A stretch of DNA of 64,000 bases from Bacteroidetes bacterium OLB10. GTDB taxonomy: Bacteria > Bacteroidota > Bacteroidia > AKYH767-A > OLB10. Below the pieces are notes generated by a model. It saw only the letters and a list, made by a program, of their open reading frames with translations, had not been told where the DNA came from and did not search any database. The DNA lies in assembly GCA_001567275.1 (NCBI GenBank), contig LNBX01000011.1:1-64000 (forward strand), read 5' to 3'. The position numbers and the translations under genes were made by a program. The number at the start of each line of letters is the position of its first letter. Positions within the stretch are counted from its first letter, which is position 1. Below are positions 86-15,550 of the stretch, one piece after another.

Positions 86-2140
86 ATGGCCCAATCGCTT
101 CAACTCAATATCATTCCTTTTTCAGCCCCTGTGCAGGAGGCTGAATTTGCTTTTTATACCGAAAGGCAGGAAGGATATTGCCCCATTCATAAAGACGATT
201 TAAACGGAGCCATTGAAGGATTGGTAGATGAAAGCGAATTGCACTATGGCAATTGGCTTTATACTGATTTTGGAGCACCAAAAGAAAACGCCATCATCAT
301 TTCGGTTGACCTTACCGAATGTAAATACTTTGCCCAGCACTATTACAGGCATTTAATCCGCAATCATTTCAAAGGCGTTGCAGACATCATGCGGAAGAAC
401 TTCACCAACGAAATTGAAGTTTGGTTTCACAACCCGAAAGCCAGCAATGCCAAATTCAAAGTGTACAATCAGTTTACACTGAAAGTGCAGCACAACCGTG
501 TTACCGATGGTCCCGAACTGGTAGTTTCATTTGATGGAACAACCAAAGTGCTGAACAAGAGCATTACCGAAATTCACAACTTCAAAACGGAGCTTTACAA
601 CTGGATAAACTGCAATGGAGAACTGAACCGATGGAAATACCTCACCGATGAACAGAAGCTCAACCATGAGCATAACTATCCGGTGGTGAGCAACACATTA
701 AAGCCCCACTTCGATATTGCGTTTGATGTACCGGATTTCAAAAACCGTTACCCAAAGTATTTTACCCTGCTCAACGACTTTTATAATAACTACCTGAATA
801 CAGAGGATTTTAGAGCAATCCTGCCACTTTCAGCAGACGGATTTTTCAAGCCCAACGGGTTGTCGGTACAACGCATTAACGGCACATCTAACGAATTACA
901 GTTTGGCAAAGGCGTAGGCGTTGAGCCTAAAAGAGATTTACGAAAGCTGAAACCATATAAGCCGGTTCCCCAACCAAACAATGTAAAGTTCTTTTTCATT
1001 TACCATAAGCCCGACAGAGAACAGGCAGTTAAAAGCATTTGGCAATACCTGAAAGATGGGTACAATGGGCAGTATCCTTTTCCGAAAATGGAAGAGTATA
1101 TCAGCCAGCCTTTTGAACTGGAAGAAAACGGCAGCATTGCATTTGATAACATAGACGAGGCCGTTTCAGTGGTGCAGAAAGCGATCAAGAATAAAGACCG
1201 CCTACCCGATACCAAATACTTCGCCATCTATGTAAGTCCGGTTCCCAAGTGGGAGAAAGACCCTAAGCGAAACAGTATATACCACCGCATCAAAGAAATA
1301 CTGCTGTATGAAGGCATTACCTCACAAGTAATCTGGAAGGAGAATATTGCCAAGCCTGCTTTCAATTTATTCTTGCCCAATATTGAAACCGCAATATTAG
1401 CCAAGCTGGGTGGTGTGCCCTGGCGACTCAAAAGAGATACCACGAATGAATTGATTGTAGGTGTAGGAGCTTTCTATTCCATCACCAAAAAGTCCAAGTT
1501 TGTAGGTTCTGCATTCTGTTTCAACAATGAAGGCATCTTCAAAGGCTTTGATTGCTTTGGTGCAAATGATACAATCAGCATAGCAGGTTCAATAAGGGAG
1601 GCAGTAGGCAAATTCATTGCATCCAATTACAGAGCCACAAGGCTTATTATCCATTTTTACAAAGACCTGAGCAAGAAGGAGCTGAAACCAATTGTTGACA
1701 CCCTCCATGCCTTAGGCTTGCCAATACCGGTAATTGTAGTAACCATCAATAAGACGGAGAGCAAAGAATTGTTGGCATTTGATACGAGCAGTCAAAAACT
1801 CATGCCATACAGCGGAACGATTGTGAAAGTAGGTGCGAAAGAATACCTGCTCTTCAACAATACCCGGTACGAGGAAACATCTGCACCAACCGACAGAGAA
1901 CACCATTTCCCGGTGAAGATTTCATTTTTTAGCGACAAAGCAGAGTTGTTAGAAGATCCTGAATTGATAAACCAACTCATTGACCAGGTGTATCAGTTCA
2001 GCCGAATGTACTGGAAAAGTGTAAGCCAGCAGAACCTGCCGGTAACAATCAAGTACCCCGAAATGGTGGCTGAGATTTTCCCCCATTTCCAACACGACAA
2101 ATTACCCGACCACGGCAGGGAGAGCCTGTGGTTTTTGTAA
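86..2140 (+). CDS. Long prokaryotic Argonaute (pAgo), predicted catalytically inactive
   Basis: 684 aa, complete. Prokaryotic Argonautes bind a short nucleic-acid guide and use it to find complementary target DNA or RNA. The C-terminal third reads as MID-PIWI. A MID 5'-phosphate pocket motif is visible around Y399, K403, Q414 and K418 (IYHRIKEILLYEGITSQV). The PIWI entry motif AKLGGVPWRL lies at 439-448, and the protein ends in the hydrophobic C-terminus LWFL typical of Argonautes. The first catalytic Asp of the DEDX tetrad should follow the first PIWI strand, but here it reads VGVG (G461). The third Asp is plausibly D527, and the fourth position is E659 in KYPEMVA. Loss of the first Asp predicts no slicing. 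Residues 1-380 hold the N-terminal and any PAZ-like region, without a motif I can name. ATG at 86 follows the previous stop closely. GC is about 45% by eye, higher than the downstream genes. PIWI identity is firm; assignment to the inactive long-B type is inference. Confidence 0.9.
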   Translation: MAQSLQLNIIPFSAPVQEAEFAFYTERQEGYCPIHKDDLNGAIEGLVDESELHYGNWLYTDFGAPKENAIIISVDLTECKYFAQHYYRHLIRNHFKGVADIMRKNFTNEIEVWFHNPKASNAKFKVYNQFTLKVQHNRVTDGPELVVSFDGTTKVLNKSITEIHNFKTELYNWINCNGELNRWKYLTDEQKLNHEHNYPVVSNTLKPHFDIAFDVPDFKNRYPKYFTLLNDFYNNYLNTEDFRAILPLSADGFFKPNGLSVQRINGTSNELQFGKGVGVEPKRDLRKLKPYKPVPQPNNVKFFFIYHKPDREQAVKSIWQYLKDGYNGQYPFPKMEEYISQPFELEENGSIAFDNIDEAVSVVQKAIKNKDRLPDTKYFAIYVSPVPKWEKDPKRNSIYHRIKEILLYEGITSQVIWKENIAKPAFNLFLPNIETAILAKLGGVPWRLKRDTTNELIVGVGAFYSITKKSKFVGSAFCFNNEGIFKGFDCFGANDTISIAGSIREAVGKFIASNYRATRLIIHFYKDLSKKELKPIVDTLHALGLPIPVIVVTINKTESKELLAFDTSSQKLMPYSGTIVKVGAKEYLLFNNTRYEETSAPTDREHHFPVKISFFSDKAELLEDPELINQLIDQVYQFSRMYWKSVSQQNLPVTIKYPEMVAEIFPHFQHDKLPDHGRESLWFL

Positions 2141-2173
2141 ATAAAACTGAATGCACAAATTAAGAAAGATAAA

Positions 2174-5100
2174 ATGATACTGAAACTACACTACGCAAAT
2201 CGTCTTAGAGAAGTGCCCTATGCGGTTCAGTTAATCGAATCAATGAATGGCAATGAGATAGAAACAACTTTTCTAAATTTTGGTATCGAACAGGGAAGGG
2301 AGGCCAACACATATGCAATTCAAATTCCACACCCAGTCAAAGAAAATGTAACAGTTCAGTTTCGTGGAATGCTGACTAATAATAACTCCTTTTCAATTTT
2401 TCTCTTTAAAGAATTAGATAATGCAATACTCTCAATTGATGAGTCAAAACAATTAAAACAAAGGTGTACTATTGAATACCTTCCAAGGCCTGATCAAACA
2501 AGAGATAAAGAATTTATCAGATTTACATTTGAGTTGGAGGAACTGCCTGTAACAAAGGTTGTATCGAAGGTGGAAAGAGAAACTCAGATAAAAATATGGG
2601 AAACTTACATTAGAGCCATCAAAGCACTCTTCAAAAATCAAGAAGATCTCTTTAAGATATTGGATATAAACGAGCCTAATAAAGATATAATTGATGTCAA
2701 AATTGAAAAGGAAGATTGGAAGAAAATACTAATTAGTGAATTAGGTGAACAATTTCCTCAATTCCCTCTTATAAAAGATTCAAAGGGGAAGTTTGAATTT
2801 GCTTTTGATACAGAGGAATTGCAGAATGAAGATGGCCAAAATGAAAACAGCATTCAAACGGATACAAAGGTTGTATTGGAAACAATTTCAGAAACTGTTA
2901 CTGATAATTTTTTCAAGATTAATTCAAAACCACAAATTGTTTCAAGAAGTTTTATAAAGTTAAATTTTCTAAGCCGGGAAGAAAAAATAAAAGTAGCTTC
3001 TGATATATTGGATGAAATAAAATCTTTAGACCCCAACGTAGAAGTTAAAATCACTGAAAACCTGTCAGTAGAGATTCAATTGGAAGACATACAATTGCTT
3101 AATTCTGTTATTTCCAATAATTATCCAAATCTGAGTGTTAGTCCAATAAACGCAGTCTGCGAGTATGAAATTTCTCAACCAAGTATTGACAGTGAATCAT
3201 TTTGCAAAGGGATTATTGAAAAGATAACTTCTCCTGGAAATTCTTACAAAGCAATTCCTTTGGACAATTTTACCACTGTTACCATCACTCCAGACAGGGG
3301 ATTTTTAAACAAAGAAAACTTTCAATTTTTCGAATCAAATAATTTACGGCTTTCGAAAATACAGCAATCACTAACATTTCAATTTGGTAACAACTTGCCT
3401 GAAATTGAAGGCACTATTTTAGCTGGCAAAACTTATAAGTATGAAGGTGATTTAAATTTCATAAGGAATAAGTCAGAGGAGATAAAGAAAAATGTGAATC
3501 AGAAGTTCCAGGCAAACACCAGCTATATATTTACAGTAATGTTGCCTAAGGTTGATACTCATAGGCTAAATCGAGAGGTCACACTAGAACTGTATAATAA
3601 ACTTGGTATTAAACCGTCTCAAGGCAAACCAGAAATAGCATTCAGTTCAAATTTCGATGAGTATGAGAAAAAATTTAGTACCCTTCACGAAATTCTCAAT
3701 AACCATAATGTTCTATTAAGAAATCCCAAAACTTTAAGCCTCTACATAAAACAGAAAATAGATGATGAAAGTGAGCTAAAAGAACTTATTGAACGGAATG
3801 TGAAGAAGCCATTGGTTTCTGAATACTTGAATAATGTCAGAGTATTTTATAATTCCGAAAGGCAGCTTGTAGAAATGGAATGGTCAGAAACTTATTCAAA
3901 TCAACAATTGCTTAAATCCGTACAAGAATTAATAATGGCGGAACATACGAAACAATTTATAAGGCAGGATTCAAAGGCAGAGATAAATCAAATTCTGAGA
4001 TTTGATGCTGAACTCGATTTGGCAAAAGTTGAAGATTTTGAAAGGAATAGGCAAAGAACATTTACTGGTAAGGGTTCTGCCTTTTTACTTGATGGGGAGC
4101 AGGCTGCTGAGTTTGAGGCAAGTCGAAATCTTTTATTAGATGAAGATTATGGGACTCTTGTAGGAAACATAGATGATTGGCAAAGAAACCGCATTTCTAT
4201 AAGCGTACTTCCTCCATTATTGAAAGCCATTAAGCAGGATTTACCTTATTTTAAAAATGATAGGAATCTTGCTGATATTGAGGAGTGGATAGGTAGTTAT
4301 ATCAAGCCGACATTATCTGGCGACCTAACGCAAAATAGACGTTTGCAATATGCAATTGAGAGGGTACTTTATCCTACTCAACCTTTTAAGAGAAGTAGAA
4401 AGAATAAATTAACACTTTTCAATCAAAGGCTTCCTGAGTTTATATTTGATGCTTCTCAAGCAAGACCAATTTCTGATGATGAGATGAGTAAGACAGATGC
4501 GAATCTCAATACTCTAAATAAATTAAATCCTAAACAAAGAGAAGCGGTTGTAAAAGCATTAAATGCTAAAGATTTATTCATTCTGCAAGGTCCTCCCGGA
4601 ACAGGTAAGACTACTGTTATTTCCGAGATTATTTTCCAACTTCTCAAACGTAATCCTAATACTAAAATACTTCTGACATCGCAAACGCATTTGGCGGTCG
4701 ATAATGCATTAGAAAGATTAAGCGGTCAAAGCATAGTTAAGCCGTTACGTTTGGGAACTAACCCAGATAGTTTTGAGGAAGAAGGCTTGAAATATTTTGA
4801 AGGGAATATCGAGCAATGGGTTAAAGCACCAACCAAAAGCAAAGAGGAGAAAGCATCTGAGATGAATCCAGTTTATATGTGGATTCATAATATCATTAAT
4901 TCGTCAGATAAAAATAATCAAGAGCTGCAACCAACTTTAAACAAATGGCGTGATGGCCTTTTGAATCTTAGCATAAGTGATAAGGAATTATTCAAGAATA
5001 AATTTAAATATAATGTGGTAGGTGCCACATGTAGCTTTACAGGCCATGATAAAAAGTTTTTAGAAAAGCTTGAAGTTCAGAAAAACGGATTTGATTATGT

Positions 5101-6058
5101 TATTTTCGATGAAGCCAGTAAAGCAACTCCACCTGAGTTATTAATACCCTTATTAGCAGGTCGCACATTAATTGTTATTGGTGATCATAAACAGTTACCA
5201 CCGATGATAGAGGAGGATAGTTTTGCCGAGAAATTAAAAGAGATCGGTGAAGAGAAACTTGCAGAGGAGATTGCTGATGCTGAAGTGGAAAAATCTCAGT
5301 TTGAGAAGTTGTTCAGAAATGCATTTGAATCCAATAAAAGTATCATTACTACTTTGGATACTCAATTTCGAATGCACGATGATATTATGCAGTTGATAAA
5401 TCAATTCTATTTGGAAGAGGGCGGACTTAAATGTGGTTTGGATAATGAGAGGTTGGATATAAAAGATTTTAATGAAAAGGAATCAAGGCATCATGGTATT
5501 AAGGTTGGGAATTTTCTTGACCATGAAAATCATGTATTATGGATTAATACAACTTCACTTGAACAGAGGAGTGGTAATTCATTCTATAACACGGGGGAAA
5601 TTTCAGCAATAGACAAGCTATTGAGTTTGATTAAAAGATCAGATGGTTATCAAAAATTAGTTAGCCATTTTACAAAAGAGGAAGAGAAGGAAATTGGTCT
5701 AATTACATTTTATGGTGAACAAAAGAAAAAATTGAGAGAGTTGGAAAAGAGGCACAGTGATTTATCTCTAAGAATTAATACAGTCGATAAATTTCAGGGG
5801 ATGGAGAGAAATATTGTTATTATTTCAACTGTTCGTAACAATGAAAAAGGAAGTATAGGTTTTGCAGAAAAACTACAGCGTATTAATGTAGCTTTATCTC
5901 GGGCTAAGAGGCTTTTAATAATAGTTGGAAACCTTGATCATTTTTCCTACAATAAACTTGGAGTGCCTTATTACAAGGAGATCGAACGAGTTTTAAAAAA
6001 TAAGGGTGCAATTCGTGATGAAAAACAACTTTCAGAACTAATGAATGAGATATTATGA
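2174..6058 (+). CDS. Large Upf1/DNA2-like superfamily 1 helicase
   Basis: 1294 aa. The C-terminal 500 residues are a complete SF1 helicase: Q-like motif LNPKQREAV (about 785), Walker A GPPGTGKTT (about 806-814), motif Ia TSQTHLAVDNAL, motif II FDEAS (about 975), motif III GDHKQLPP, an LDTQFRMHD segment, DKFQGMERNIVI (motif V) and NVALSRAKRLLII (motif VI, about 1239). This is the COG1112-like/Upf1 type, which acts on RNA or DNA with 5'-3' polarity in characterised relatives. The first 780 residues show no motif I recognise and may hold a partner-binding module. The gene starts 33 nt after the Argonaute stop, and its TGA overlaps the next ATG (ATGA), so it is translationally coupled to the PLD protein. 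GC is low (about 32-35% in sampled lines). Helicase identity is firm; the defence role is inferred from neighbours. Confidence 0.9.
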   Translation: MILKLHYANRLREVPYAVQLIESMNGNEIETTFLNFGIEQGREANTYAIQIPHPVKENVTVQFRGMLTNNNSFSIFLFKELDNAILSIDESKQLKQRCTIEYLPRPDQTRDKEFIRFTFELEELPVTKVVSKVERETQIKIWETYIRAIKALFKNQEDLFKILDINEPNKDIIDVKIEKEDWKKILISELGEQFPQFPLIKDSKGKFEFAFDTEELQNEDGQNENSIQTDTKVVLETISETVTDNFFKINSKPQIVSRSFIKLNFLSREEKIKVASDILDEIKSLDPNVEVKITENLSVEIQLEDIQLLNSVISNNYPNLSVSPINAVCEYEISQPSIDSESFCKGIIEKITSPGNSYKAIPLDNFTTVTITPDRGFLNKENFQFFESNNLRLSKIQQSLTFQFGNNLPEIEGTILAGKTYKYEGDLNFIRNKSEEIKKNVNQKFQANTSYIFTVMLPKVDTHRLNREVTLELYNKLGIKPSQGKPEIAFSSNFDEYEKKFSTLHEILNNHNVLLRNPKTLSLYIKQKIDDESELKELIERNVKKPLVSEYLNNVRVFYNSERQLVEMEWSETYSNQQLLKSVQELIMAEHTKQFIRQDSKAEINQILRFDAELDLAKVEDFERNRQRTFTGKGSAFLLDGEQAAEFEASRNLLLDEDYGTLVGNIDDWQRNRISISVLPPLLKAIKQDLPYFKNDRNLADIEEWIGSYIKPTLSGDLTQNRRLQYAIERVLYPTQPFKRSRKNKLTLFNQRLPEFIFDASQARPISDDEMSKTDANLNTLNKLNPKQREAVVKALNAKDLFILQGPPGTGKTTVISEIIFQLLKRNPNTKILLTSQTHLAVDNALERLSGQSIVKPLRLGTNPDSFEEEGLKYFEGNIEQWVKAPTKSKEEKASEMNPVYMWIHNIINSSDKNNQELQPTLNKWRDGLLNLSISDKELFKNKFKYNVVGATCSFTGHDKKFLEKLEVQKNGFDYVIFDEASKATPPELLIPLLAGRTLIVIGDHKQLPPMIEEDSFAEKLKEIGEEKLAEEIADAEVEKSQFEKLFRNAFESNKSIITTLDTQFRMHDDIMQLINQFYLEEGGLKCGLDNERLDIKDFNEKESRHHGIKVGNFLDHENHVLWINTTSLEQRSGNSFYNTGEISAIDKLLSLIKRSDGYQKLVSHFTKEEEKEIGLITFYGEQKKKLRELEKRHSDLSLRINTVDKFQGMERNIVIISTVRNNEKGSIGFAEKLQRINVALSRAKRLLIIVGNLDHFSYNKLGVPYYKEIERVLKNKGAIRDEKQLSELMNEIL

Positions 6059-7902
6059 AAAACAAATTCGCAATACAAGAAGTTGCCAAACAATATAATA
6101 TCTCACCTCAGGAGATAATTGATTTTCTCAATGATAAAGGTGTTTCCGTTGATTTTGGTTACCAAAAAATAGTTGATCCAAGAATCATACGAGACCTTGA
6201 AAAGGAGTTGGTGAACAGAAACAAAAAGCTGCCATTGCTTTATATTTCTGAAGCGGATATTGAGAATTTTAAGCCAGTTACGAAGCCAATTGAATTTTGG
6301 CAAGATGCTAATATTCCAAACCTTGAAAAATTAATATACAAAACACTTTCATTTGAAAAACCTAAATCGGAGAAGATTGTAGGCTTAACTCCATTCAATT
6401 GGAAATTTGTTAAGGCAAAATATAATATTAAATACTCAGTAGGTCTGAACTTCACTTTATTTGAAGACACTATTTGTGAAATTGTAAAAATTAAACCAGG
6501 AATAAGTGTTTTGGATATTTGCCAATTGTTGGGCTTTGGTAATGACCAAGAGATTATATCAGAAACTGTAAAAGGGTTAAAAACAGATGATATATTAAAG
6601 GTTGATGACAGTGGTTTTTCTTTGAATTTAACCGAAAAGGGTGCAGTTGATATTCAGAGAAAGCAAAAATCTAAACCGGCTACGAATGCTTTTTTTGACC
6701 TGTTCATAGATTTTTATAACCCCTCTAATGTTCATGCTAAAGAAATATTTAGTCATTCAAAATCACATAAAACCAAACCTGCTGACATCTTAATCACAGA
6801 TTTCGAATTAATTAAGAATTTAGCAGAATTTCAGCAGCCAACTTATCAGTCATCAAAAAGCGGATATATTTTACAAGAGGCTGAGTTGATTAAGGATTCT
6901 GTTACTTTTTTTGAAAGCAGATTCGTTGCGATTGTGACAGAGGATTTGGAGAACAATGTTCAAAATAAGATTTGGATATTTGATCCCTACAAGCGTGAAA
7001 TCTCAAAACAATTAACTAAGACTGCATCTGAGAATACAATTCTATATAGCTTAATTACTGAAAAGCTTTATGGTGAATTAAAAGAAACAGTCTTTGAATC
7101 TGTAGAAAAAGATCAGGAACAAATTGCTTTTGACAATTTACTGGTTACTGCAACTAAAGAAAAGTCATCCAAAAAATCAATTCCCTTACAGTTTCAGCAT
7201 TTTTTGTCACCAGACAGTTTGGATACGGTGCAATTTGAGGATGAAATGGAACGTCTTTTTGATGTTGTACAAAAGCAATTGTGGCTTATTTTCCCTTTTG
7301 CAATGGGATATATTATTGAGAAAAGAATAAGGTTAATTGAGAAGGCAATAAAGAATGATTGCAGTGTTTTTGTGTGTTTTAGTCAAAATGAGAATAAAGA
7401 ATTTGGGGCTAAGGCCGTAATTGATAAAAAGGCACTTGAGATATTCAATAAGCTGGCGAATAATAATGAAAGATTTTATTACGCTGAATTACCAAAGTTT
7501 CATGAAAAAAGGGTTTTTGCATTTCTTGATGATAACCTCAAATGTGAATACTCCGGTAGCCACAATTATTTATCATTCTTCGTTCAAAAGACAGCAAAAG
7601 GTGTTCGTAGAGAAAATATGCAAAGGTTGATATGGTCTGAAAATTCAGCTAAAGAATTAGCAGTGCGTAGGAATGAATTTGCATTCTCATATTGCGAAAG
7701 AATATCTGATGAGTTAGATGCGGATATTCAATTGCTAACAGCGTTTTCAAAAACCGACTTAAAGGGAAGGTCAGAGTATTATAAAAAGCAGTTAAAAAAG
7801 ATTAAGGAATTTTCAACCATTTTGACAGATCAAGAAATGAGTTTTGCAAACGTAATCAGCTTGCTTGAAAAAATGGATCAGTTTATTCAGAAAAATAAGT
7901 AA
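6055..7902 (+). CDS. PLD-family nuclease-like protein with N-terminal IF2_N-like helical domain
   Basis: 615 aa. The N-terminus (about 1-50, VAKQYNISPQEIIDFLNDKG) resembles the short helical domain at the start of initiation factor IF2, which is also used as a nucleic-acid or docking module. The middle has wHTH-like text (about 140-200) but nothing firmly nameable. The C-terminal part carries a single phospholipase-D type motif, HEKRVFAFLDD at about 483-493, followed by the GSHN signature (YSGSHNYLSFF, about 501-511). Canonical HKD is HxKxxxxD; here the Asp is two residues further away, so activity is not certain. One HKD per chain suggests a dimer, as in Nuc and BfiI. The start overlaps the helicase stop by 4 nt. 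A paired Upf1-like helicase and PLD nuclease recalls Mokosh-type defence. PLD assignment is moderate. Confidence 0.7.
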   Translation: MKNKFAIQEVAKQYNISPQEIIDFLNDKGVSVDFGYQKIVDPRIIRDLEKELVNRNKKLPLLYISEADIENFKPVTKPIEFWQDANIPNLEKLIYKTLSFEKPKSEKIVGLTPFNWKFVKAKYNIKYSVGLNFTLFEDTICEIVKIKPGISVLDICQLLGFGNDQEIISETVKGLKTDDILKVDDSGFSLNLTEKGAVDIQRKQKSKPATNAFFDLFIDFYNPSNVHAKEIFSHSKSHKTKPADILITDFELIKNLAEFQQPTYQSSKSGYILQEAELIKDSVTFFESRFVAIVTEDLENNVQNKIWIFDPYKREISKQLTKTASENTILYSLITEKLYGELKETVFESVEKDQEQIAFDNLLVTATKEKSSKKSIPLQFQHFLSPDSLDTVQFEDEMERLFDVVQKQLWLIFPFAMGYIIEKRIRLIEKAIKNDCSVFVCFSQNENKEFGAKAVIDKKALEIFNKLANNNERFYYAELPKFHEKRVFAFLDDNLKCEYSGSHNYLSFFVQKTAKGVRRENMQRLIWSENSAKELAVRRNEFAFSYCERISDELDADIQLLTAFSKTDLKGRSEYYKKQLKKIKEFSTILTDQEMSFANVISLLEKMDQFIQKNK

Positions 7903-7909
7903 ATCTACG

Positions 7910-8524
7910 ATGAGCAAATCACTTCCAATAAAGCACCTATCAGCAAGAGTACCTTGGCATGACAATAAATGGAATGGCAAAACCTGCTGTAGTGTTTTGG
8001 ACAACTCTTTTTGCAGAATATTGCCTCGTGTTGATGCTACAAAGAACCCTGATACGGAATCTTCCGACAAAACGATAACTGAAGAAAACTTTCCACCCTG
8101 CATTTCAGAGAAAGGCACTTTCCTTTCTCCAAATAGCTACACAAGAGAATTAACCCATGCCTGGACTAAAATCAATCCTATGTTTAAGGATTTCAAGCCA
8201 GGCATATACTTTCACAAGCCTTATTCTTTCAATGCAGTTCCGTTTTTATGGATGATGAAGAATAAGGGGGGTGACGATAATCCGCATTTTTCCGAAAAAG
8301 CACATGTTTTTGAATTGGACTATGATGCAGACTTAGAGCAAGAAGTGGATGAAAATTTAGGCTTTGAAGGTAATATTTGGGTGCAGCATCCGGCTAATCA
8401 GAAAATATTGTTAGATGCATTCTTTGGTTGTCTTAAAAAACGACAGTCATTAATATTTTTTTATTGCAAAGACACACCCTTTTCTGAACCTAACGAAAGA
8501 GTAATTGTAGGCGTAGCAAAGTGA
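7910..8524 (+). CDS. N-terminal module of the RecD-like protein (split off by an apparent frameshift)
   Basis: 204 aa from ATG 7910. An in-frame upstream ATG at 7865 lies inside the PLD gene and is rejected. The N-terminus has a distinctive ARVPWHDNKWNG motif and cysteines at 26, 27, 35 and 64 that could bind a metal. The sequence ends RVIVGVAK followed by TGA, and the next gene starts with GTG in an overlapping GTGA. Adding one A to the AAA at 8518-8520 removes the stop and gives a continuous VIVGVAKVKNEPGAILEY. My recollection is that related large AAA/RecD-type proteins carry this module at the N-terminus of one polypeptide. I therefore read 7910-11715 as one gene of about 1268 aa. If the split is real, the two parts would be translationally coupled subunits. 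Confidence 0.65.
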   Translation: MSKSLPIKHLSARVPWHDNKWNGKTCCSVLDNSFCRILPRVDATKNPDTESSDKTITEENFPPCISEKGTFLSPNSYTRELTHAWTKINPMFKDFKPGIYFHKPYSFNAVPFLWMMKNKGGDDNPHFSEKAHVFELDYDADLEQEVDENLGFEGNIWVQHPANQKILLDAFFGCLKKRQSLIFFYCKDTPFSEPNERVIVGVAK

Positions 8525-11500
8525 AGAACGAACCCGGTGCAATACTTGAATACAATTTTGATAAGGGCTACACTGGCCATAAAAGCCACCCTTGGGATAG
8601 ATGCGTTGAACATACATTAACTGCCAATAATCCTGACGGATTTCTGTTGCCTTACCATGATATTCTTGATTTTACAAAGAAGAACAACATTGAAGTTGAT
8701 TTAAAAGAGTACGCTGCTTTTGCATCTGATTATAAGCAATTTTCTTTTGCCTCTGAATTGGTTGAACACGATACGGCTATTGATGCATTGTTGAATATGG
8801 CTGAGAGTTTGAAAAAGTCGGAAGTGTTGCTGGAAAAATCTTTTAGGAAAGAGTTGGATTGGATTGATGCTGAAATTTCAGCTATCTGGGATATGAGAGG
8901 AGCATTCCCGGGAATGGGGCCCGTTTTAAGTGCATTGAATATTGAAGATGGTAACACCATCGCATGGGAGATAGAGAAATATATACTTCAGAAAGATGGA
9001 GACCTTTTGCAAACGAATCCTTGGTCAATATTTGAGGAAAGTATTATAGAACCGGAAAAGTATATTAAGGCCAGAGGTGCAAAATTATTTAACGCTACTG
9101 CACAGCGTATATGGAAAGGGAAACTTGGGAAGAAAAAAGAGTTTTTCAAGCTCATAAGCCGTTGTCAGTTGAATAATGATCAGGCAACTTTTATTATAGA
9201 AAACCATGTTGATTTAATTGGATCAACACAAGAGATTTCCGAAAACCTTTACTTGCTTTATGAAAAGACAAGATTTGAAGCCTTTGGAATTTCTTTTCGT
9301 CAGGTAGATAAAGCACTATTACCACCAGAGAAAATTCAAACAGCGTTTCCCTTACCGGCTGAAACTGCTTTAACAGATAACTTGGATGAGAAAAGAGTAC
9401 GGGCATTTTCAGTATTCATTTTAGAAGAAGCAGCAGCAGAAGGTCATTCATTATTGCCATTTGAGGAAGTGTTGGAACGAATGAAGACGAAAGCAATGGA
9501 TGAGAGTTTTCCTATTGATGAGGATATCCTGACCACTCAATCAGAAGAAGAGTTTTTTATAAAGGAGATTACATCTGTACAGCCAAGCAAATCAAATCCT
9601 ACTCTGTTTCTCAAACTGCAACGTTTGGCAGAATTAAAAACAATTATCAGACAGCGTTTAAATATCGAGCAAATTGTATCAAAGCCATACAACATTGAAA
9701 AGGACTGGCTAAAGCTTATTAATAGCCATAAGAAATTTCCATCATTAGATCCGAATAGTCCTGACTATGCAGATGAAATTGCTGCAAGAAATGAAAAGGC
9801 AGAAGCATTAAATGTTTTGACCAATTACAAATTCTCTGTGTTAATTGGCCCGGCTGGTTCTGGCAAAACATCTTTGCTGGAAATTTTTGAGAGGCAGGAT
9901 GAAATAGTCCGGGGTGGTGTATTGAAATTAGCTCCTACAGGTAAAGCAAGAGTTAAATTAGGGCATGACGCCAAAACAATTGCTCAGTTTCTATATCCTG
10001 ATAGGTATGATGCAATGACTGGCACCTATTTCATTAATGAAGACGCAGGGAAAAGTTCATCTGCAAAGAATATCATTATTGACGAGGCATCAATGCTAAC
10101 CGAGGAACAATTGGCAGCATTGTTTGATGCTTTAGGTCCCGTTGACAGGATCATACTGGTGGGTGATTACAGACAGTTACCACCAATCGGTACAGGAAGA
10201 CCTTTTGTGGATATAGTAAGTGAGATTAAGCCAAGGACATTTGAAAAGGCGAATATTTTTTCAGGTCCTGGATATGCAGAATTGAAGAAGATAAGACGAC
10301 AAAGCAATACAGATGATTTCCGTTGGGATGTTGCATTAAGTCGTTGTTTTAGTGATGAACCCACAAAAGAAGACTTAGAGGCATTTCATGCGATTTCATC
10401 AGGGGCAATTAAATCAGACCATATCCGGTTAGTGAAATGGTATGAGAGTAAAGATTTTAGAGAACTATTTGAGCAGGTTGTAGCTGAAGAATTACCCTTA
10501 GACAAGAATGACATAATTAAATCGTTCAACAGAAAAATTGGTGCAAAGGATGTTGGTAATTATCAATACTTCAATTACGATTTTGCGGAAAGGGAAATAG
10601 AGAAATGGCAGGTCATATCACCTGTAAATGGATACGGATATGGTGTAAAGGAAGTAAATAAGTTCTTTCAAACAACATATCGAAAACCCTTCATTGATTT
10701 GGCACTGAACATTCAGCCTGAAGGTTCCAGTTATTTTCAAAAGAGAAAGGTTGCAAAGCCTAAAGGCAATGACAACATAGTGTATGGTGATAAGGTAATT
10801 AATTTAAGAAATACCCGTTGGGAGAATTGGCAGTGGATTAAACCTTCTGATAAGAAAGCTGAAGCATTGAATTATATTGCCAATGGTGAAATTGGTGTTA
10901 TAACCGGGGAGTTCAGAGCAAAAGATGGAAGTCGAAAAGGAGAACCCAATATTGAAATTGCTTTCTCTACGCAGCCCGGCTATAGCTATGTATTTTGGGC
11001 AGATCAATTGGGGGAAGAAGGGAAATACTCATTAGAATTGGCCTATGCAATAACTGTACACAAATCGCAGGGAAGCGGCTTTGAAAAAGTGTTTTTCGTA
11101 ATGCCCTCTAAGGGTGCAATTCTAAGCCGGGAGTTACTTTATACCGCATTAACAAGACAGGAAAAGAAGATTATTATTTTGCATCAAGGCGATTTCAGAG
11201 ATTTCATCCGATTAGCCTCAACAGATGCTTCGTCAACGGCAAGAAGATTTACAGACCTATTCCATTTACCAGAGGTGAAACAGTTAAAGCAGAAATGGTA
11301 CGATGCAAGGTATGTGAATATAAGTGAGAGAGGAGAACCCATGCTGAGTAAGAATGAGGTTATTATTGCCAATTGTCTGAATAAATACAAAAGGCAAATT
11401 ACTTATGCTTATGAAGACAAATTGAAACTTGACACCTCTGACAGAACAATAAAACCTGATTTTACGATTGATAACCTCTCAACTGGCAAGCGTTTCTATT

Positions 11501-11715
11501 GGGAGCATTTAGGGATGATGACAAAAACGGATTACCGGGAAAAATGGCGGAAAAAGCTGGAGGGCTACTTAAAGGATGGATTTGTTTTGCATACAGAAGC
11601 CAAGCCAGGTGATGAAAGAATTTTGATTCTAACTGAGGAAAATCCTAATGGAGGGATAAATTCTCAGGATATTGATATAACAGTAAGGAAGTACATTTTG
11701 GAAGAGCAAGTTTAG
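8521..11715 (+). CDS. RecD-like SF1 helicase with C-terminal PD-(D/E)XK-type nuclease domain
   Basis: 1064 aa from a GTG start. The helicase core has Walker A GPAGSGKTS (about 443-451), Walker B IIIDEAS (about 519), motif III GDYRQLPPIG (about 548) and the UvrD_C_2 signature AYAITVHKSQGSGFE (about 842), followed by LLYTALTRQEKKIII. This is the RecD/TraI-like organisation. Residues about 940-1060 look like a restriction-endonuclease fold: SKNEVIIANCL, then KPDFTI (Asp about 980) and YWEHLG (Glu about 996), then K-rich helices, which is the layout of a PD-(D/E)XK site. Roles such as unwinding and degrading invader DNA follow from the families. The N-terminal 400 residues are probably continuous with the preceding 204-aa reading frame. 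This is the last gene of the operon. The helicase call is firm; the nuclease call is moderate. Confidence 0.85.
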   Translation: MKNEPGAILEYNFDKGYTGHKSHPWDRCVEHTLTANNPDGFLLPYHDILDFTKKNNIEVDLKEYAAFASDYKQFSFASELVEHDTAIDALLNMAESLKKSEVLLEKSFRKELDWIDAEISAIWDMRGAFPGMGPVLSALNIEDGNTIAWEIEKYILQKDGDLLQTNPWSIFEESIIEPEKYIKARGAKLFNATAQRIWKGKLGKKKEFFKLISRCQLNNDQATFIIENHVDLIGSTQEISENLYLLYEKTRFEAFGISFRQVDKALLPPEKIQTAFPLPAETALTDNLDEKRVRAFSVFILEEAAAEGHSLLPFEEVLERMKTKAMDESFPIDEDILTTQSEEEFFIKEITSVQPSKSNPTLFLKLQRLAELKTIIRQRLNIEQIVSKPYNIEKDWLKLINSHKKFPSLDPNSPDYADEIAARNEKAEALNVLTNYKFSVLIGPAGSGKTSLLEIFERQDEIVRGGVLKLAPTGKARVKLGHDAKTIAQFLYPDRYDAMTGTYFINEDAGKSSSAKNIIIDEASMLTEEQLAALFDALGPVDRIILVGDYRQLPPIGTGRPFVDIVSEIKPRTFEKANIFSGPGYAELKKIRRQSNTDDFRWDVALSRCFSDEPTKEDLEAFHAISSGAIKSDHIRLVKWYESKDFRELFEQVVAEELPLDKNDIIKSFNRKIGAKDVGNYQYFNYDFAEREIEKWQVISPVNGYGYGVKEVNKFFQTTYRKPFIDLALNIQPEGSSYFQKRKVAKPKGNDNIVYGDKVINLRNTRWENWQWIKPSDKKAEALNYIANGEIGVITGEFRAKDGSRKGEPNIEIAFSTQPGYSYVFWADQLGEEGKYSLELAYAITVHKSQGSGFEKVFFVMPSKGAILSRELLYTALTRQEKKIIILHQGDFRDFIRLASTDASSTARRFTDLFHLPEVKQLKQKWYDARYVNISERGEPMLSKNEVIIANCLNKYKRQITYAYEDKLKLDTSDRTIKPDFTIDNLSTGKRFYWEHLGMMTKTDYREKWRKKLEGYLKDGFVLHTEAKPGDERILILTEENPNGGINSQDIDITVRKYILEEQV

Positions 11716-11740: not shown

Positions 11741-11820
11741 CCTTTTTAGGGCATTCCCCTTCGGGTCGCGCTTTCCGCTACAATCTTTTACTGATAGCAA
11801 AAGGATTTCCGCTTCAATCC
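11741..11820. repeat. Repeat-like intergenic element with two near-identical 14-mers
   Basis: TTTCCGCTACAATC (11772-11785) and TTTCCGCTTCAATC (11806-11819) differ at one base and lie 34 nt apart. A CCCCTTCGGG hairpin stretch precedes them at 11757-11766. The segment directly follows the operon stop at 11715. I have the impression that similar text recurs between genes in Bacteroidota, which would make it an interspersed palindromic repeat or a 3' structure. No poly-T terminator was found. Confidence 0.45.
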
Positions 11821-11859
11821 CTAATGCAAAGAAAAGCGGTGTTCGTTCCTCACGAATTT

Positions 11860-12800
11860 ATTGAACCCACCCGGCCAACGCACAAGCACGGCTTATGCAG
11901 TGGCTAACCCACAAAGCCAACCCTTCCACTGCATCTATGGTGTTGCCGCCATTTTTAACTGTCATACTTTTTGTGGCTATGCTCCCCACGCTTTTGGCAC
12001 ATTGCCTGTTCCGCTTCGCTACACAGCCAAAGAGCCAAGCCAACCCAAGCATAGCAACAAAAAAGCCGCTACACTCCAACCACCACCACCGTTTCGCTTA
12101 TGCCAGTATAAAAAAATGGCGGAAGCATACTTAAACATAATGCGGTCTTATGTGTTCGCTTCGCACAGCCACCCCCCGCTTATGCAAGCATCCCAACGCA
12201 GTGGCTGTCACATAAGTCGCCATTATGTTAAGTAGCCAACACCATAGCACTTTTTATCAAAAGTGAAGCCGTGCTTCTGCCAACGCACCCCACCCGAGAC
12301 CCACGACACCCCGCCACCCTTTCAGCGGTGCAGTAAAAAAATAAAGCATGATTTGTTTTACGGCTATGTGATTGCGGTAGATTCATTCACTTCATCTCCA
12401 TTCCGTTCAGGCGTTTCGTTCATTCCGCTTTGCTTCATTCACTACACTATCCTTCACTGCATTTCGCCTACGTTCATTTCACCAACCTCAGCACCGCACA
12501 GCAAAAGCAATTCCTTCTCTTCATTCCGCAAAGCCAACACACAGGCTTCCGTGTCATGGCGTTTGCTTAACCCACGCTACAATAGCTTTTGTTTTTTGAA
12601 AAGTTACAAAAGCTGCCAACGCTTCTAAGCAAACTGCTCATGCCACTCCAAGCCACCAACCCGATTTGCTCCATTCCGTTCAGTCATTGCATTTGCTCTT
12701 GCCCCACCGCACGATTGAAAGCGGTATGCTTTATTTTTTCCTGCGAAGTGTTTACCCCAGCCGACCCACGAAAGCCATCATCGGAATACTAATACGGTTG
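11860..12800. other. Gene-free, C-rich/G-poor accessory region
   Basis: About 940 bases without a believable gene. The plus strand is strikingly richer in C than in G, with long pyrimidine stretches and recurrent CATTC/CATTCCG words (12380-12530). The decamer GCCAACGCAC recurs at about 11873, 12279 and 12928. An 11-bp inverted pair, AAGCACGGCTT at 11884-11894 and AAGCCGTGCTT at 12266-12276, brackets a nested hairpin. Several open frames cross the region on both strands, but their translations are low-complexity and unlike any family, so none is annotated. It may be mobile-element debris, a structured RNA, or a transfer or replication origin region. Confidence 0.5.
12135..12228. repeat. Nested inverted repeat (potential long hairpin/cruciform)
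   Basis: The outer arms 12135-12154 and 12209-12228 are complementary over about 16 of 20 positions (ACATAATG...CTTATGTG against CACATAAG...CATTATGT). The inner arms ACAGCCAC (12165-12172) and GTGGCTGT (12201-12208) are perfect. Coordinates were worked out by hand from the sequence. No function is assigned. Confidence 0.6.
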
Positions 12801-12912
12801 AAATGAGATGCTGTGAAAAGACTACAGCGATTGATATTTCTTTCTCTAAATAAGGAATGCAGATAAGGAGGATTTGATTGAAAAAAATAAAAATAAAAAG
12901 TGCAGCAAAGTT

Positions 12913-13060
12913 AGGTGGCTGGCACAGGCCAACGCACTAAAAAAAACCAAAAGACTACGGCATAATGAAAGGCAAATAAGCTGTTTATTTTTATAAGGTA
13001 TTTGCCTTTCACCCTTCGGGACTTATTCCGTTTCCTTTTGGTTTTTTAGCCACGCCACCT
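12913..13060. repeat. Palindromic element copy A (multi-tier inverted repeat)
   Basis: Three nested inverted repeats. The outer pair is AGGTGGC (12913-12919) and GCCACCT (13054-13060). The middle arms of 25 nt lie at 12941-12965 and 13023-13047 (ACCAAAAG..CGGCATAA against TTATTCCG..CTTTTGGT). The inner perfect 12-mers GAAAGGCAAATA (12967-12978) and TATTTGCCTTTC (12999-13010) complete it. Both 25-nt middle arms recur exactly in copy B at 13701-13725 and 13754-13778. The two copies flank the 141-aa gene. Confidence 0.75.
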
Positions 13061-13183
13061 GTGGGATTGCTTTCTTTTTTTTTCTGTTTTTTTTCTTTGT
13101 CAAATTATATATGTGCTGCGGAGCGTAAGCGAAGCAGGACTGAGGCAAAGGCTTAAAACAGGCTCAAAAATTAAGCACTCATT

Positions 13184-13609
13184 ATGCACAGTCCGAAGTT
13201 TCAAACTTACAGCGTAAAGCATCAAAGCACAGGTTTTGAATTTTACATTTTATCGAAAGGGTTAAACAGTGGTAAGCCTCTGGTAACTCCATGCCCCAAC
13301 TCATTTGTTTGCATCTGCAAAAGCCAGGAGCAGAAAGATTTTTATTTCTGGTTGCTGTTTGGCTTGTGGAAGGCAAAACATTTTCATCAGTTTCTTACTG
13401 GTTCCGTTATACCGTTTATTCGTTTATCAGATTTGAAAGATGAGGTTTTCAATCAGGCCGAGAAAGTGAGTAAGCAGGAAAAGGAGTATAAAAGCACAGT
13501 AGATAAAATCAAGCAGCTTGAAGAAAAGGAAAAAGCCATCCGGCAAAATCTTGCTTTAATCAATGATTTGAAAAGGGCAATGATTTACCGGCATCTAAAA
13601 AGCAAATAG
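13184..13609 (+). CDS. DUF6943-like small protein of Bacteroidota accessory elements
   Basis: 141 aa, starting at ATG 13184. The first 85 residues (KHQSTGFEFYILSKGLNSGK, CPNSFVCIC, YFWLLFGLWKAKHFHQFL, GSVIPFI) match the pattern I associate with DUF6943, a family of unknown function that I recall from Bacteroidota integrative elements. The last 50 residues are a charged, probably coiled-coil tail (KQEKEYKSTVDKIKQLEEKEKA). The gene stands alone between the two palindromic elements, 123 nt after copy A and 29 nt before copy B. No enzymatic motif is seen. The family name rests on recollection of the sequence pattern; that it is a real gene is likely. Confidence 0.65.
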   Translation: MHSPKFQTYSVKHQSTGFEFYILSKGLNSGKPLVTPCPNSFVCICKSQEQKDFYFWLLFGLWKAKHFHQFLTGSVIPFIRLSDLKDEVFNQAEKVSKQEKEYKSTVDKIKQLEEKEKAIRQNLALINDLKRAMIYRHLKSK

Positions 13610-13638
13610 TAAGGCTGACCTAAACATGATGCTGCACC

Positions 13639-13824
13639 GTGCATAAATAAATTTTGATGTGCAAAGGTAGCATGGCGGGCAGACGCACAAGCCCGACCTA
13701 AAAAAACCAAAAGACTACGGCATAAACACAGACCCACCGCACAAGGCTATCATTTATTCCGTTTCCTTTTGGTTTTTTTATCCGCCATGCAGAGAGATGC
13801 ACATAAAATTTATTTACTATGCAC
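13639..13824. repeat. Palindromic element copy B (multi-tier inverted repeat)
   Basis: The outer arms are 13639-13663 (GTGCATAAATAAATTTT then GATGTGCA) and 13798-13824 (TGCACAT then AAAATTTATTTACTATGCAC), complementary apart from a two-base insertion. Next are CATGGCGG (13671-13678) and CCGCCATG (13782-13789), then the 25-nt arms 13701-13725 and 13754-13778, identical to those in copy A. The whole 186-bp unit is close to one imperfect palindrome. Confidence 0.75.
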
Positions 13825-14023
13825 AAGCATCCTCGTATCAGTTCCGGCAGCCATTCAGGTATTTGCCCATTTACTCCGCAGGTTCTCCATCAGCACTTGC
13901 CTTTGTCACCCTTTGCGTTTCAGCGTTACATCCGCAGGTCATCCTTAGCCCATCAGCCAGTTTTTGGCATCAAGGTTTATCGGCTTCCTTGTGGCTGCTA
14001 TGTTTGGCGTTATCCTTCGGGTG

Positions 14024-14084
14024 TTCGTGAGCTTTCAGCATTGCCCTTTTAGGGGCTTTGCTGAATTGCGGAAGCAATCACGAA
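14024..14084. repeat. Three-tier hairpin
   Basis: TTCGTGA (14024-14030) pairs with TCACGAA (14078-14084), TTCAGCA (14034-14040) with TGCTGAA (14059-14065), and GCCC with GGGC in the core around TTTTA. The 200 bases before it (13825-14023) hold no believable gene. There is no T-tract on either side, so it is not an ordinary terminator. Confidence 0.55.
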
Positions 14085-14121
14085 TACCATATTTTAGAAA
14101 ATGAGCAGAACCATGAGTAAA

Positions 14122-14150
14122 AGAAAAAGCCCCACCAAACTGGTGAGGCT
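14122..14150 (-). terminator. Rho-independent terminator of the 249-aa gene
   Basis: On the minus strand, AGCCTCACC, loop AGTTT and GGTGGGGCT form a near-perfect stem followed by TTTTTCTTTT. It lies 28 nt after the stop of the gene at 14179-14928. Confidence 0.85.
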
Positions 14151-14178
14151 ATTTCCTAACTGAAAGAAAGAACAGCGT

Positions 14179-14928
14179 TTATGCTACTTCAACAATGTTC
14201 AACACGTTGTAAGCACCGTTTTTGAGAGAGTACTGAACTCCGTTCACTTCCTGGAAGAACTCAATCAGCATCAGGTAGAACTTAGTTCCAGTTCCGGCAG
14301 GTACACCGGCAGGAGTAAGAGTTACAGGTGTGTTGGTTCCGTCAATAGGAAGATTGGTGACCGGGCTGTACTCAATTGCACTGGTTCCGTTGGTGAAGTC
14401 AACAACTGCATACGCAGACTTGAAGCTCACATGAGTTGCACCAGACGGATATGCAATATCATTGATCGGAATGAAGGCCGGAATGTTGATTGCTCCGGAT
14501 ACACCTGTTACGGTGAAGGGAGCAAAAAGAACACCACCCAAAGCTGCACTGTCATTGAAATCAAAATCTTTCAACAGAGCCAATGCCGCAGGGTCAGCAA
14601 TACCAATTGCTACAGTACGTTCACCCCTTGGAGATGTAACGTCATAGTTTTTAATCTGCGTCATGATTTGGGTTAAACGACTGGTAACACGATTGTCAGC
14701 AGCGTTCATCATGAGGTTACGGACAGCGTTGCGAAGCAACTTGCCGGCAGTTGCAGAACTGCCAAACTCAGCTCCGTTTTCACGGGTACGCTGGAAGTTC
14801 GGGTCATTTGCAATACGTTCAGCAGATACGCCACCTTTGGTTTTTACCAAGTGACCATCTTGTGTTTTGTAGAAGGTTAGCTCATCCAGAGTGCCTTCAA
14901 TTTTGAGAATACCTTTAAGTTTTGCCAT
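14179..14928 (-). CDS. Unknown 249-aa protein, monocistronic
   Basis: I do not recognise a function. The N-terminus is strongly patterned (MAKLKGILKIEGTLDELTFY, GHLVKTKGG, DPNFQRTRENGAEFG), and I recall similar starts in uncharacterised Bacteroidota proteins. Residues 60-90 are helical and Arg/Asn-rich. The remainder is Ala/Gly/Thr/Val-rich with a beta-strand look (GVLFAPFTVTGVSGAINIP, NGTSAIEYSPVTNLP), as in structural or carbohydrate-binding proteins. There is no signal peptide or membrane segment. A strong promoter and a terminator bracket it, so it is an independent and probably well-expressed unit. GC is higher than in the defence operon. It could be a surface or phage-like structural protein, but there is no direct evidence. 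Confidence 0.8.
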   Translation of the reverse strand: MAKLKGILKIEGTLDELTFYKTQDGHLVKTKGGVSAERIANDPNFQRTRENGAEFGSSATAGKLLRNAVRNLMMNAADNRVTSRLTQIMTQIKNYDVTSPRGERTVAIGIADPAALALLKDFDFNDSAALGGVLFAPFTVTGVSGAINIPAFIPINDIAYPSGATHVSFKSAYAVVDFTNGTSAIEYSPVTNLPIDGTNTPVTLTPAGVPAGTGTKFYLMLIEFFQEVNGVQYSLKNGAYNVLNIVEVA

Positions 14929-14994
14929 TGCTTTAAACTTTTTATGAGTTAGTAAATTTGTTTCGACTGATACGCTTTAATCAGATTACGAAAA

Positions 14995-15026
14995 CAAAAT
15001 TAGAAGCACTCTAAAGCCTCTGCAAA
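14995..15026 (-). promoter_or_regulatory. Bacteroidota-type promoter for the 249-aa gene
   Basis: On the minus strand, TTTG (15023-15026), a 20-nt spacer and TAATTTTG (14995-15002) match the Bacteroidota -33/-7 pattern TTTG and TAnnTTTG. It lies 66 nt before the ATG. Confidence 0.7.
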
Positions 15027-15099
15027 TGAGCCGTGCCATCTGTGCCGATTGTTCCGCATTATTCCAACAAACACACTTTTACCGCCCTTAAAAAAGATT

Positions 15100-15107
15100 T
15101 ATATTTG
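15100..15107 (+). promoter_or_regulatory. Candidate -7 element for the 62-aa gene
   Basis: TATATTTG matches TAnnTTTG and lies 68 nt before the ATG at 15176. The -33 position carries only TTTT, so support is partial. Confidence 0.4.
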
Positions 15108-15175
15108 CAATGTCACTTTCATATTTGAGGTATATCATCGGTATGGTTAGTGTATGAAGTTGAATAATTGAAATA

Positions 15176-15364
15176 ATGAATAGACTGTGCATTTATCCGA
15201 AAGACATTCAGGTAATCACAGGCAGAAGCGACAGGTATGGTAGAAACCTTATTAAGAAGATCAAGGACCATTTCAACAAGCAGCAGCACCAGGTTGTTAC
15301 TGTTGAAGAGTTCTGCCAGTACATGGGCTTGCAACCGGAAACGGTTGTCAAGCAACTTCGATAG
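15176..15364 (+). CDS. Small 62-aa protein, possible DNA-binding/excisionase-like
   Basis: The sequence MNRLCIYPKDIQVITGRSDR and the ending VTVEEFCQYMGLQPETVVKQL follow a pattern frequent in short Bacteroidota proteins of unknown function. The second half reads as a helix-turn-helix-like EEFCQYMGLQPETV segment, as in excisionase/MerR-type domains, so DNA binding is plausible. It stands alone between the 249-aa gene (divergent) and the polyene operon. The function is not known. Confidence 0.65.
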   Translation: MNRLCIYPKDIQVITGRSDRYGRNLIKKIKDHFNKQQHQVVTVEEFCQYMGLQPETVVKQLR

Positions 15365-15550
15365 GTTGTAACCTTATCTTTGCTTTTGCTTATGATAAGG
15401 CACAGCACACTCTCAACTCAACAACTTTTTTTTCCTTTCTTTGTTGGGTAGTTTCCTTTGATAATACAGCCTTTGTTGGCTATTTGTTGCCCAATTAGCT
15501 GAAAGCCTTGATAATTAAGGGTTCAATATTTTTTGTATCGGAAAATAAAT
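15365..15550. other. Intergenic boundary between accessory and polyene regions
   Basis: 186 bases with no gene. CCTTATC (15371-15377) and GATAAGG (15392-15398) form a short stem without a T-tract. No tRNA or direct-repeat attachment site was found that would mark an island end. Confidence 0.5.

Follow-up and report, generated by a model that had tools for sequence, protein, structure and literature searches.

The analysed window is a stretch of 64,000 nt from Bacteroidetes bacterium OLB10 (GCA_001567275.1, contig LNBX01000011.1, positions 1–64,000, forward strand). Two large palindromes, copies A and B, lie in this window on either side of a gene of the DUF6943 family, with defence-type cargo to their left, including a pAgo gene (PADLOC E 1.7e-278), and a gene for a 249-aa protein on the opposite strand to their right (Table 1). 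The first-pass annotation had described two palindromes with exactly shared arms flanking a DUF6943-like gene, and this description is correct in both respects. Blocks homologous to ~11,867–15,548 are present in L147 and L055, and parts of them in other relatives. Past 15,548, different DNA is found in L147, L055, L073, L098, and L034, while L077 aligns less well. Neither a left end of the mobile unit nor an integrase was found. The 249-aa protein, which we take to resemble DUF6266, had no Pfam match at E 0.001. Its homologues follow the hairpin module on the opposite strand in L055, L073, L147, and L098, and more distant ones can be noted by eye in L030, L032, L034, and L040. By eye, L034 and L040 also have fragments similar to pAgo to the left of their hairpins.

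Table 1. Features of the palindrome module and its surroundings (positions in the window).
Feature	Position	Strand	Remarks
Defence-type cargo left of the module	86..11715	+	pAgo, Mokosh-like MkoA/MkoB, PDC-S68-like pair
Copy A hairpin	12880..13095	-	approximate extent; minus strand is the putative functional folded strand
Copy A putative -7 element TAACTTTG	12906..12913	-	four bases unpaired in the predicted fold
Copy A outer tier, AGGTGGC / GCCACCT	12913..12919 / 13054..13060		
Copy A palindrome arms	12941..12965 / 13023..13047		
Copy A putative -33 element TTTTG	12948..12952	-	non-template arm
Copy A core arm A AAAAGACTACGGCATAA	12949..12965	+	near-invariant
Copy A core arm B TTATTCCGTTTCCTTTT	13023..13039	+	near-invariant
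Copy A spacer stem, template-arm side	13040..13060	+	21 nt; plus-strand sequence
DUF6943 gene	13184..13609	+	141 aa; first gene after copy A; PF22105, E 5.9e-50
Copy B hairpin	13638..13825	-	approximate extent; minus strand folded (predicted)
Copy B putative -7 element TACCTTTG	13662..13669	-	first six bases unpaired
Copy B outer tier, GCATGGCGG / CCGCCATGC	13670..13678 / 13782..13790		
Copy B palindrome arms	13699..13726 / 13753..13780		
Copy B putative -33 element TTTTG	13708..13712	-	
Copy B core arm A	13709..13725	+	
Copy B core arm B	13754..13770	+	
249-aa gene	14179..14928	-	conserved neighbour in several island relatives
Conserved right end of the mobile unit	15450..15548	.	unrelated DNA beyond in other genomes

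The 25- and 26-nt arms are identical in the two copies. Within each copy the arms are complementary at only 84–86% of positions, and a fixed internal mismatch is conserved. The inner loops differ, as had been noted at first pass, and the distance between the 17-nt cores is 57 nt in copy A versus 28 nt in copy B. Both hairpins are larger than the first-pass annotation had them. The predicted DNA folds of the regions 12905–13067 (z −6.95) and 13660–13800 (z −4.50) were not equalled by any of 200 shuffles in either case. No other site for the arm 19-mers was found in the window at up to three mismatches (0.00 and 0.01 expected from shuffles), and a search of the whole genome for the arm-A 19-mer gave just the copies in A and B and no third, at up to two mismatches. 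Neither the window hairpins nor the elements at ten other loci matched an Rfam family at the gathering score, and a permissive threshold added nothing beyond one chance match.

Outside its own genome, the core recurs across Bacteroidota. The arm-A 19-mer with up to one mismatch occurs in 12/199 genomes, its own included; the one-mismatch prevalence of 30/395 contains chance matches because a reversed control pattern matches too. A scan with the exact arm-A 18-mer, one genome per species, returned at least 120 stretches. Among the matches listed, arm B (up to four mismatches) follows arm A within 250 nt in 117/120, and one of the three remaining stretches ends before it could appear; 113/120 are labelled Bacteroidota, the remainder being mostly metagenome bins. 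Arm B, which was outside the search key and free to vary within four mismatches, is exact in 115/126 elements and in 47/55 non-redundant ones, while the invariance of arm A is partly selected because arm A was the search key. The loops of the elements span 3–99 nt. Among 72,556 plasmids no match was found for three queries (the window region and two other elements). The scan of viral_contigs gave 11 stretches: both arms are present in three of them (L024, L025, and L026), seven contain the 17-mer and no second arm, and in L028 the 17-mer is too close to the contig end for a second arm to be judged. A scan of viral_contigs with the DUF6943 protein confirmed none of 15 stretches; it is not a sensitive scan because L025 and L026 do encode relatives. 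Four further genomes (G243, G322, G434, and G267) have two to four DUF6943 genes each, with no core at up to three mismatches in the short loci fetched; they may hold diverged hairpins.

The first-pass annotation had also proposed that additional outer tiers covary and that the structure is under selection. Comparison of relatives bears this out. At the second position outside the core, a Watson–Crick pair is formed in 62 of the 73 non-redundant elements, and all four pair types occur, against a mean of 26.5 pairs and a maximum of 40 when the partners were shuffled. Positions 3–8 also exceed the shuffled mean, while positions 9–13, read without gaps, are not clearly above the shuffles. This covariation across relatives argues for selection on the fold.

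The elements are located at gene starts. The first gene on the same strand, starting within 420 nt, belongs to one of five families in 80 of the 130 testable elements: SSB (25), DUF932 (20), DUF6943 (15), RadC (10), and ParB (10). The other 50 elements precede none of these families. SSB, DUF932, or ParB thus follows 55/130 elements. In the non-redundant set, 30/73 elements could be classed (SSB 11, DUF932 7, DUF6943 7, RadC 4, and ParB 1). The ParB start lies 65–66 nt from the element in 10/10 cases, and roughly half the DUF932 loci have an SSB gene between the element and DUF932. For DUF932, RadC, ParB, and SSB, the family was confirmed by Pfam in one representative each; ArdA, MobC, and DUF6876 were found at single loci. 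An ORF of at least 130 aa starting within 350 nt is present on the gene side of 58/97 elements versus 16/97 on the other side. Copy B in the window has no obvious gene behind it, and only the opposite-strand 249-aa gene follows. The genes behind the elements belong most often to a few conjugation-related families, and the arms are not ordinary terminators repeated at the ends of unrelated genes.

The position of the relaxase gene is informative about the orientation of the elements. The nearest PF03432 relaxase within 70 kb was recorded in 50 genomes, allowing one mismatch in the element and keeping one element per relaxase, the first listed. It is located downstream of the element in 28/34 cases and co-oriented in 32/34, with 6/34 on the wrong side, and these numbers treat elements as independent, though related elements are not. 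By distance, the relaxase is downstream in 19/24 cases within 30 kb and in 6/9 within 10 kb. Repetition on 36 further genomes with exact core matches, subject to the same reservation, gave 15/18 downstream, 17/18 co-oriented, and 3/18 on the wrong side. Neighbouring elements within 30 kb of each other are always direct, on the same strand (49/49 pairs; 25/25 in the first set and 24/24 in the second). Co-orientation alone would fit any upstream element; combined with a promoter on the opposite strand, it fits an element of the leading region. From relaxase position and gene content, the genes behind the elements would belong to such a region. No PF03432 relaxase was found in the genome of OLB10, so the island would be mobilized in trans, use another relaxase, or be a relic; the window copies themselves may be relics or mobilized in trans.

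Promoter boxes on the opposite strand are what the elements contain. When the minus strand is read outward from arm A, CTTTTG (−33) is followed by a stem of ~20 bp and by TAnnTTTG (−7). Flavobacterial promoters have a TTG at −33, separated by 17–23 bp from the −7 box. The full promoter TTG-N17-23-TAnnTTTG was found on the minus strand of 41/147 elements, compared with 2.9 expected and a range of 0–7 over 60 shuffles. The plus strand has it neither upstream of arm A (0/145; 1.8 expected) nor after arm B (0/149; 1.6 expected). The −7 box TAnnTTTG is present within 80 nt beyond arm A in 69/149 elements versus 1/149 beyond arm B (8.9 and 8.2 in shuffles). Since the −7 box was picked as the best match in a range, the B side was used as a control: among the 73 non-redundant elements there are 32 perfect matches versus one on the control side, and under a loose criterion (score of at least 5) 67/73 versus 43/73, a smaller contrast, with 6/73 elements lacking a box. 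Many other elements carry the forms TAnnTTGC, which is SM5-like, or TAnnTTAG. According to the passages on Flavobacterium in PMC9723704, TAnnTTTG is the sigma-A −7 box and the SM5 motif reads TAnnTTGY. The elements share these −7 motifs with the Flavobacterium promoters and differ from them in that the two promoter strands are the two arms of one strand, with the −7 box mismatched.

The geometry of the boxes is constant along one arm only. Along the putative template arm, CTTTT and the −7 box are 19–22 nt apart in 50/61 measurable elements (12–28 nt in the others, with one of 79 nt). Along the non-template arm the distance is 20–53 nt, varying because of bulges. Many elements have such bulged extra bases in the non-template spacer, unlike ordinary promoters, and this weighs against reading the folded strand as a promoter. 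GC-rich bulged stretches are also seen in the non-template spacers of copies A and B (12914–12947 and 13670–13707). In the predicted folds, mean pairing is 0.39 in the −7 box versus 0.77 in its flanks; with permuted offsets, pairing was 0.62, and the lowest value in 2000 permutations was 0.52. This open bubble is a trend, followed by 60 of the 69 elements with a −7 box, while nine of the 69 show none. The bubble is plain in copy B, where TACCTTTG faces AGAGAGA (13791–13797) with its first six bases open and with paired stems on either side. On the plus strand, TAnnTTTG is absent between the element and the ATG in all 78 loci of the five gene clusters, where 7.8 occurrences were expected.

Several features can be read from the sequence: a predicted fold with covarying stems, promoter boxes in a set geometry, the bubble, no duplex −7 box on the way to the gene, a few recurring gene families, and the usual orientation towards the relaxase. 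Together they make it quite probable that each palindrome is a single-stranded DNA promoter of a conjugative or mobilizable element. We infer that the folded strand is the transferred strand, which would enter the recipient single-stranded and fold into the hairpin. One arm would then serve as the non-template strand, with TTTTG at −33, a stem of ~20 bp, and TAnnTTTG at −7 held open in a mismatch bubble, and the other arm would be the template, running on into the gene. As the folded strand would supply both promoter strands, the leading-region gene, here DUF6943, could be read by host RNA polymerase ahead of second-strand synthesis. Once the DNA became duplex, the arms would part and the promoter would be switched off towards the gene.

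Such promoters have been described as the Frpo sites of the E. coli F plasmid and the ssi sites of ColIb-P9, where a hairpin of the transferred strand rebuilds the promoter boxes upstream of early leading-region genes (PMC11541004 and PMC9849209). In the F plasmid, Frpo1 precedes ygeA-ygeB, Frpo2 precedes ssb and yfjB, and early expression reportedly needs both (PMC9849209). The likeness to Frpo1 and Frpo2 of F, and to the ssi sites of ColIb-P9, is that the folded strand rebuilds both boxes and that its second arm acts as template in the direction of the gene; in the elements this concerns predicted folds and Bacteroidota boxes. In F, genes for anti-restriction, SSB, ParB, and DUF932 proteins lie in the leading region, on the traM strand. 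The oriT of F is located between these genes and traM. SSB, ParB, and DUF932 families are thus common to the F leading region and the element loci; the DUF932 and ParB domains were found by Pfam in F as in the element loci, and from the gene order ygeB would be the DUF932 gene. The regions upstream of ssb and ygeA in F are 89% identical, and the minus strand of each gives a long hairpin on folding. When the 149 elements were compared with the F leading region, four short matches were obtained, none inside Frpo1 or Frpo2. The element would work like Frpo, but it has no similarity at these positions and homology is not claimed. The elements differ from Frpo in their smaller hairpin, in having Bacteroidota −33/−7 boxes where Frpo has −35/−10 boxes, in the near-invariant core beside the loop, and in their location in chromosomal contigs, with no match for the three queries among the plasmids.

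Going by the title of Masai and Arai (1997), Frpo is also a priming site, and the elements could be single-strand initiation sites for second-strand primer synthesis with no role in gene expression. Copy B, with no gene behind it, would suit this explanation. That SSB, ParB, DUF932, RadC, and DUF6943 genes start so close to the elements, with the constant ParB spacing noted above, speaks against it as the sole function, which we consider unlikely. By analogy with this second role of Frpo, copy B possibly primes second-strand synthesis.

About equally improbable is a structured RNA leader, a riboregulator or antiterminator of the downstream genes, for which the plus strand would be transcribed and the RNA would fold. 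The element is located just upstream of a gene on the same strand, covarying stems suit RNA as well as DNA, and the co-orientation with the relaxase is also compatible. However, a plus-strand −7 box is found upstream in only 7/145 elements, with 15.5 expected, and the full plus-strand promoter is missing there, which is weak evidence at the low number expected. No Rfam family was found in the window hairpins or at the ten other elements, and an RNA leader leaves the minus-strand promoter, the constant spacing along the template arm, and the bubble unexplained.

The same boxes read as duplex form a sound outward promoter on the minus strand, directed away from the gene, and this weighs against the single-stranded promoter proposed here; the T-rich arms could likewise suggest a terminator. 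Either function, a terminator or an ordinary duplex promoter with outward activity, is nevertheless very unlikely. Fewer genes start on that side, as the ORF counts given above indicate, the transcript in the window would be antisense to DUF6943 or cover non-coding DNA, and the pairing of the promoter with the far arm would have no explanation.

The first-pass annotation had read the layout as a cassette bounded by folded recombination or transposition sites, attC-like or resembling REP/IS200-like ends. The attC sites of integron cassettes are folded single-stranded imperfect palindromes with a variable tip, and the element too is a folded imperfect palindrome with a variable tip. The link to mobile DNA stands, and two sites do flank DUF6943 here and in several relatives, but as cassette borders the palindromes are least probable of all: single sites are common, the sites are located at gene starts, neighbouring pairs are invariably direct, the attC-type pair GTTRRRY/RYYYAAC is present in the arms of 0/149 elements, homology and the mobile unit run past both copies to a right boundary elsewhere (15,548), and neither the Pfam matches of DUF6943 nor its fold matches include a recombinase. 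For REP/RAYT or IS200/IS605-like ends, which would have an adjacent HUH/Y1 transposase, the scan covered DUF6943 and representatives of the downstream genes and gave no transposase among their matches.

The structural model of the DUF6943 protein has a pLDDT of 91 and a pTM of 0.79. Foldseek matched it to specificity subunits of type I and related restriction–modification systems, with a best E of 0.014 and none below 0.001. In a second fold comparison, the best 14 rows were nearly all specificity subunits or DNA methyltransferases, with Z scores of 8.2–4.8 and then 3.1. The PADLOC profile of type I specificity subunits matched at E 8e-5. The predicted fold therefore resembles half of a type I specificity subunit, at moderate scores. 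Because the protein has a lone domain similar to a target-recognition domain and a long helix, it might act on type I restriction enzymes as a decoy or partner, which we offer as a lead only; DUF6943 is possibly an anti-restriction protein.

A broader proposal can be put forward tentatively, at slightly less than even chances. A separate class of single-stranded DNA promoters may have evolved in the conjugative elements of Bacteroidota, independently of Frpo, and the near-invariant 34-nt core would imply a dedicated partner, such as a surface of host RNA polymerase, SSB, or a primase. The class would be used for SSB, ParB, DUF932, RadC, and DUF6943 at entry, and DUF6943 would weaken the type I restriction of the new host or redirect it. 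The principle is known from the F plasmid of E. coli, for which early expression from the incoming strand has been demonstrated (PMC9849209), and provisionally it appears to be new for Bacteroidota. A 2024 survey lists further Frpo-like candidates, and its main text does not contain the word Bacteroid (PMC11541004). Within the literature covered, no single-stranded DNA promoter or hairpin element of the leading region was found described for Bacteroidota, matches for Frpo together with Bacteroid being judged irrelevant by titles and abstract starts, nor was literature found on DUF6943 or on DUF932 in Bacteroidota conjugative elements; the novelty is provisional because most subscription journals and preprints lay outside this search.

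Early expression from the incoming strand is part of what decides whether a mobile element survives the defences of the recipient. If the elements act as proposed, one easily searched motif would flag the genes that conjugative elements throughout Bacteroidota express early, among them uncharacterised families whose products are candidate anti-defence proteins. The motif would also predict the direction of transfer and provide a ready-made reporter design for early expression in Bacteroidota.

Two minor features of the elements and their surroundings can be added. Sequence resembling CACAAGCCCACGC is similar, by eye, among several loops and arms of the elements. A Flavo-1 RNA (Rfam RF01705) is located at the left edge of the module (11760–11832, minus strand), and a Flavo-1 RNA adjoins the element in L025 as well.
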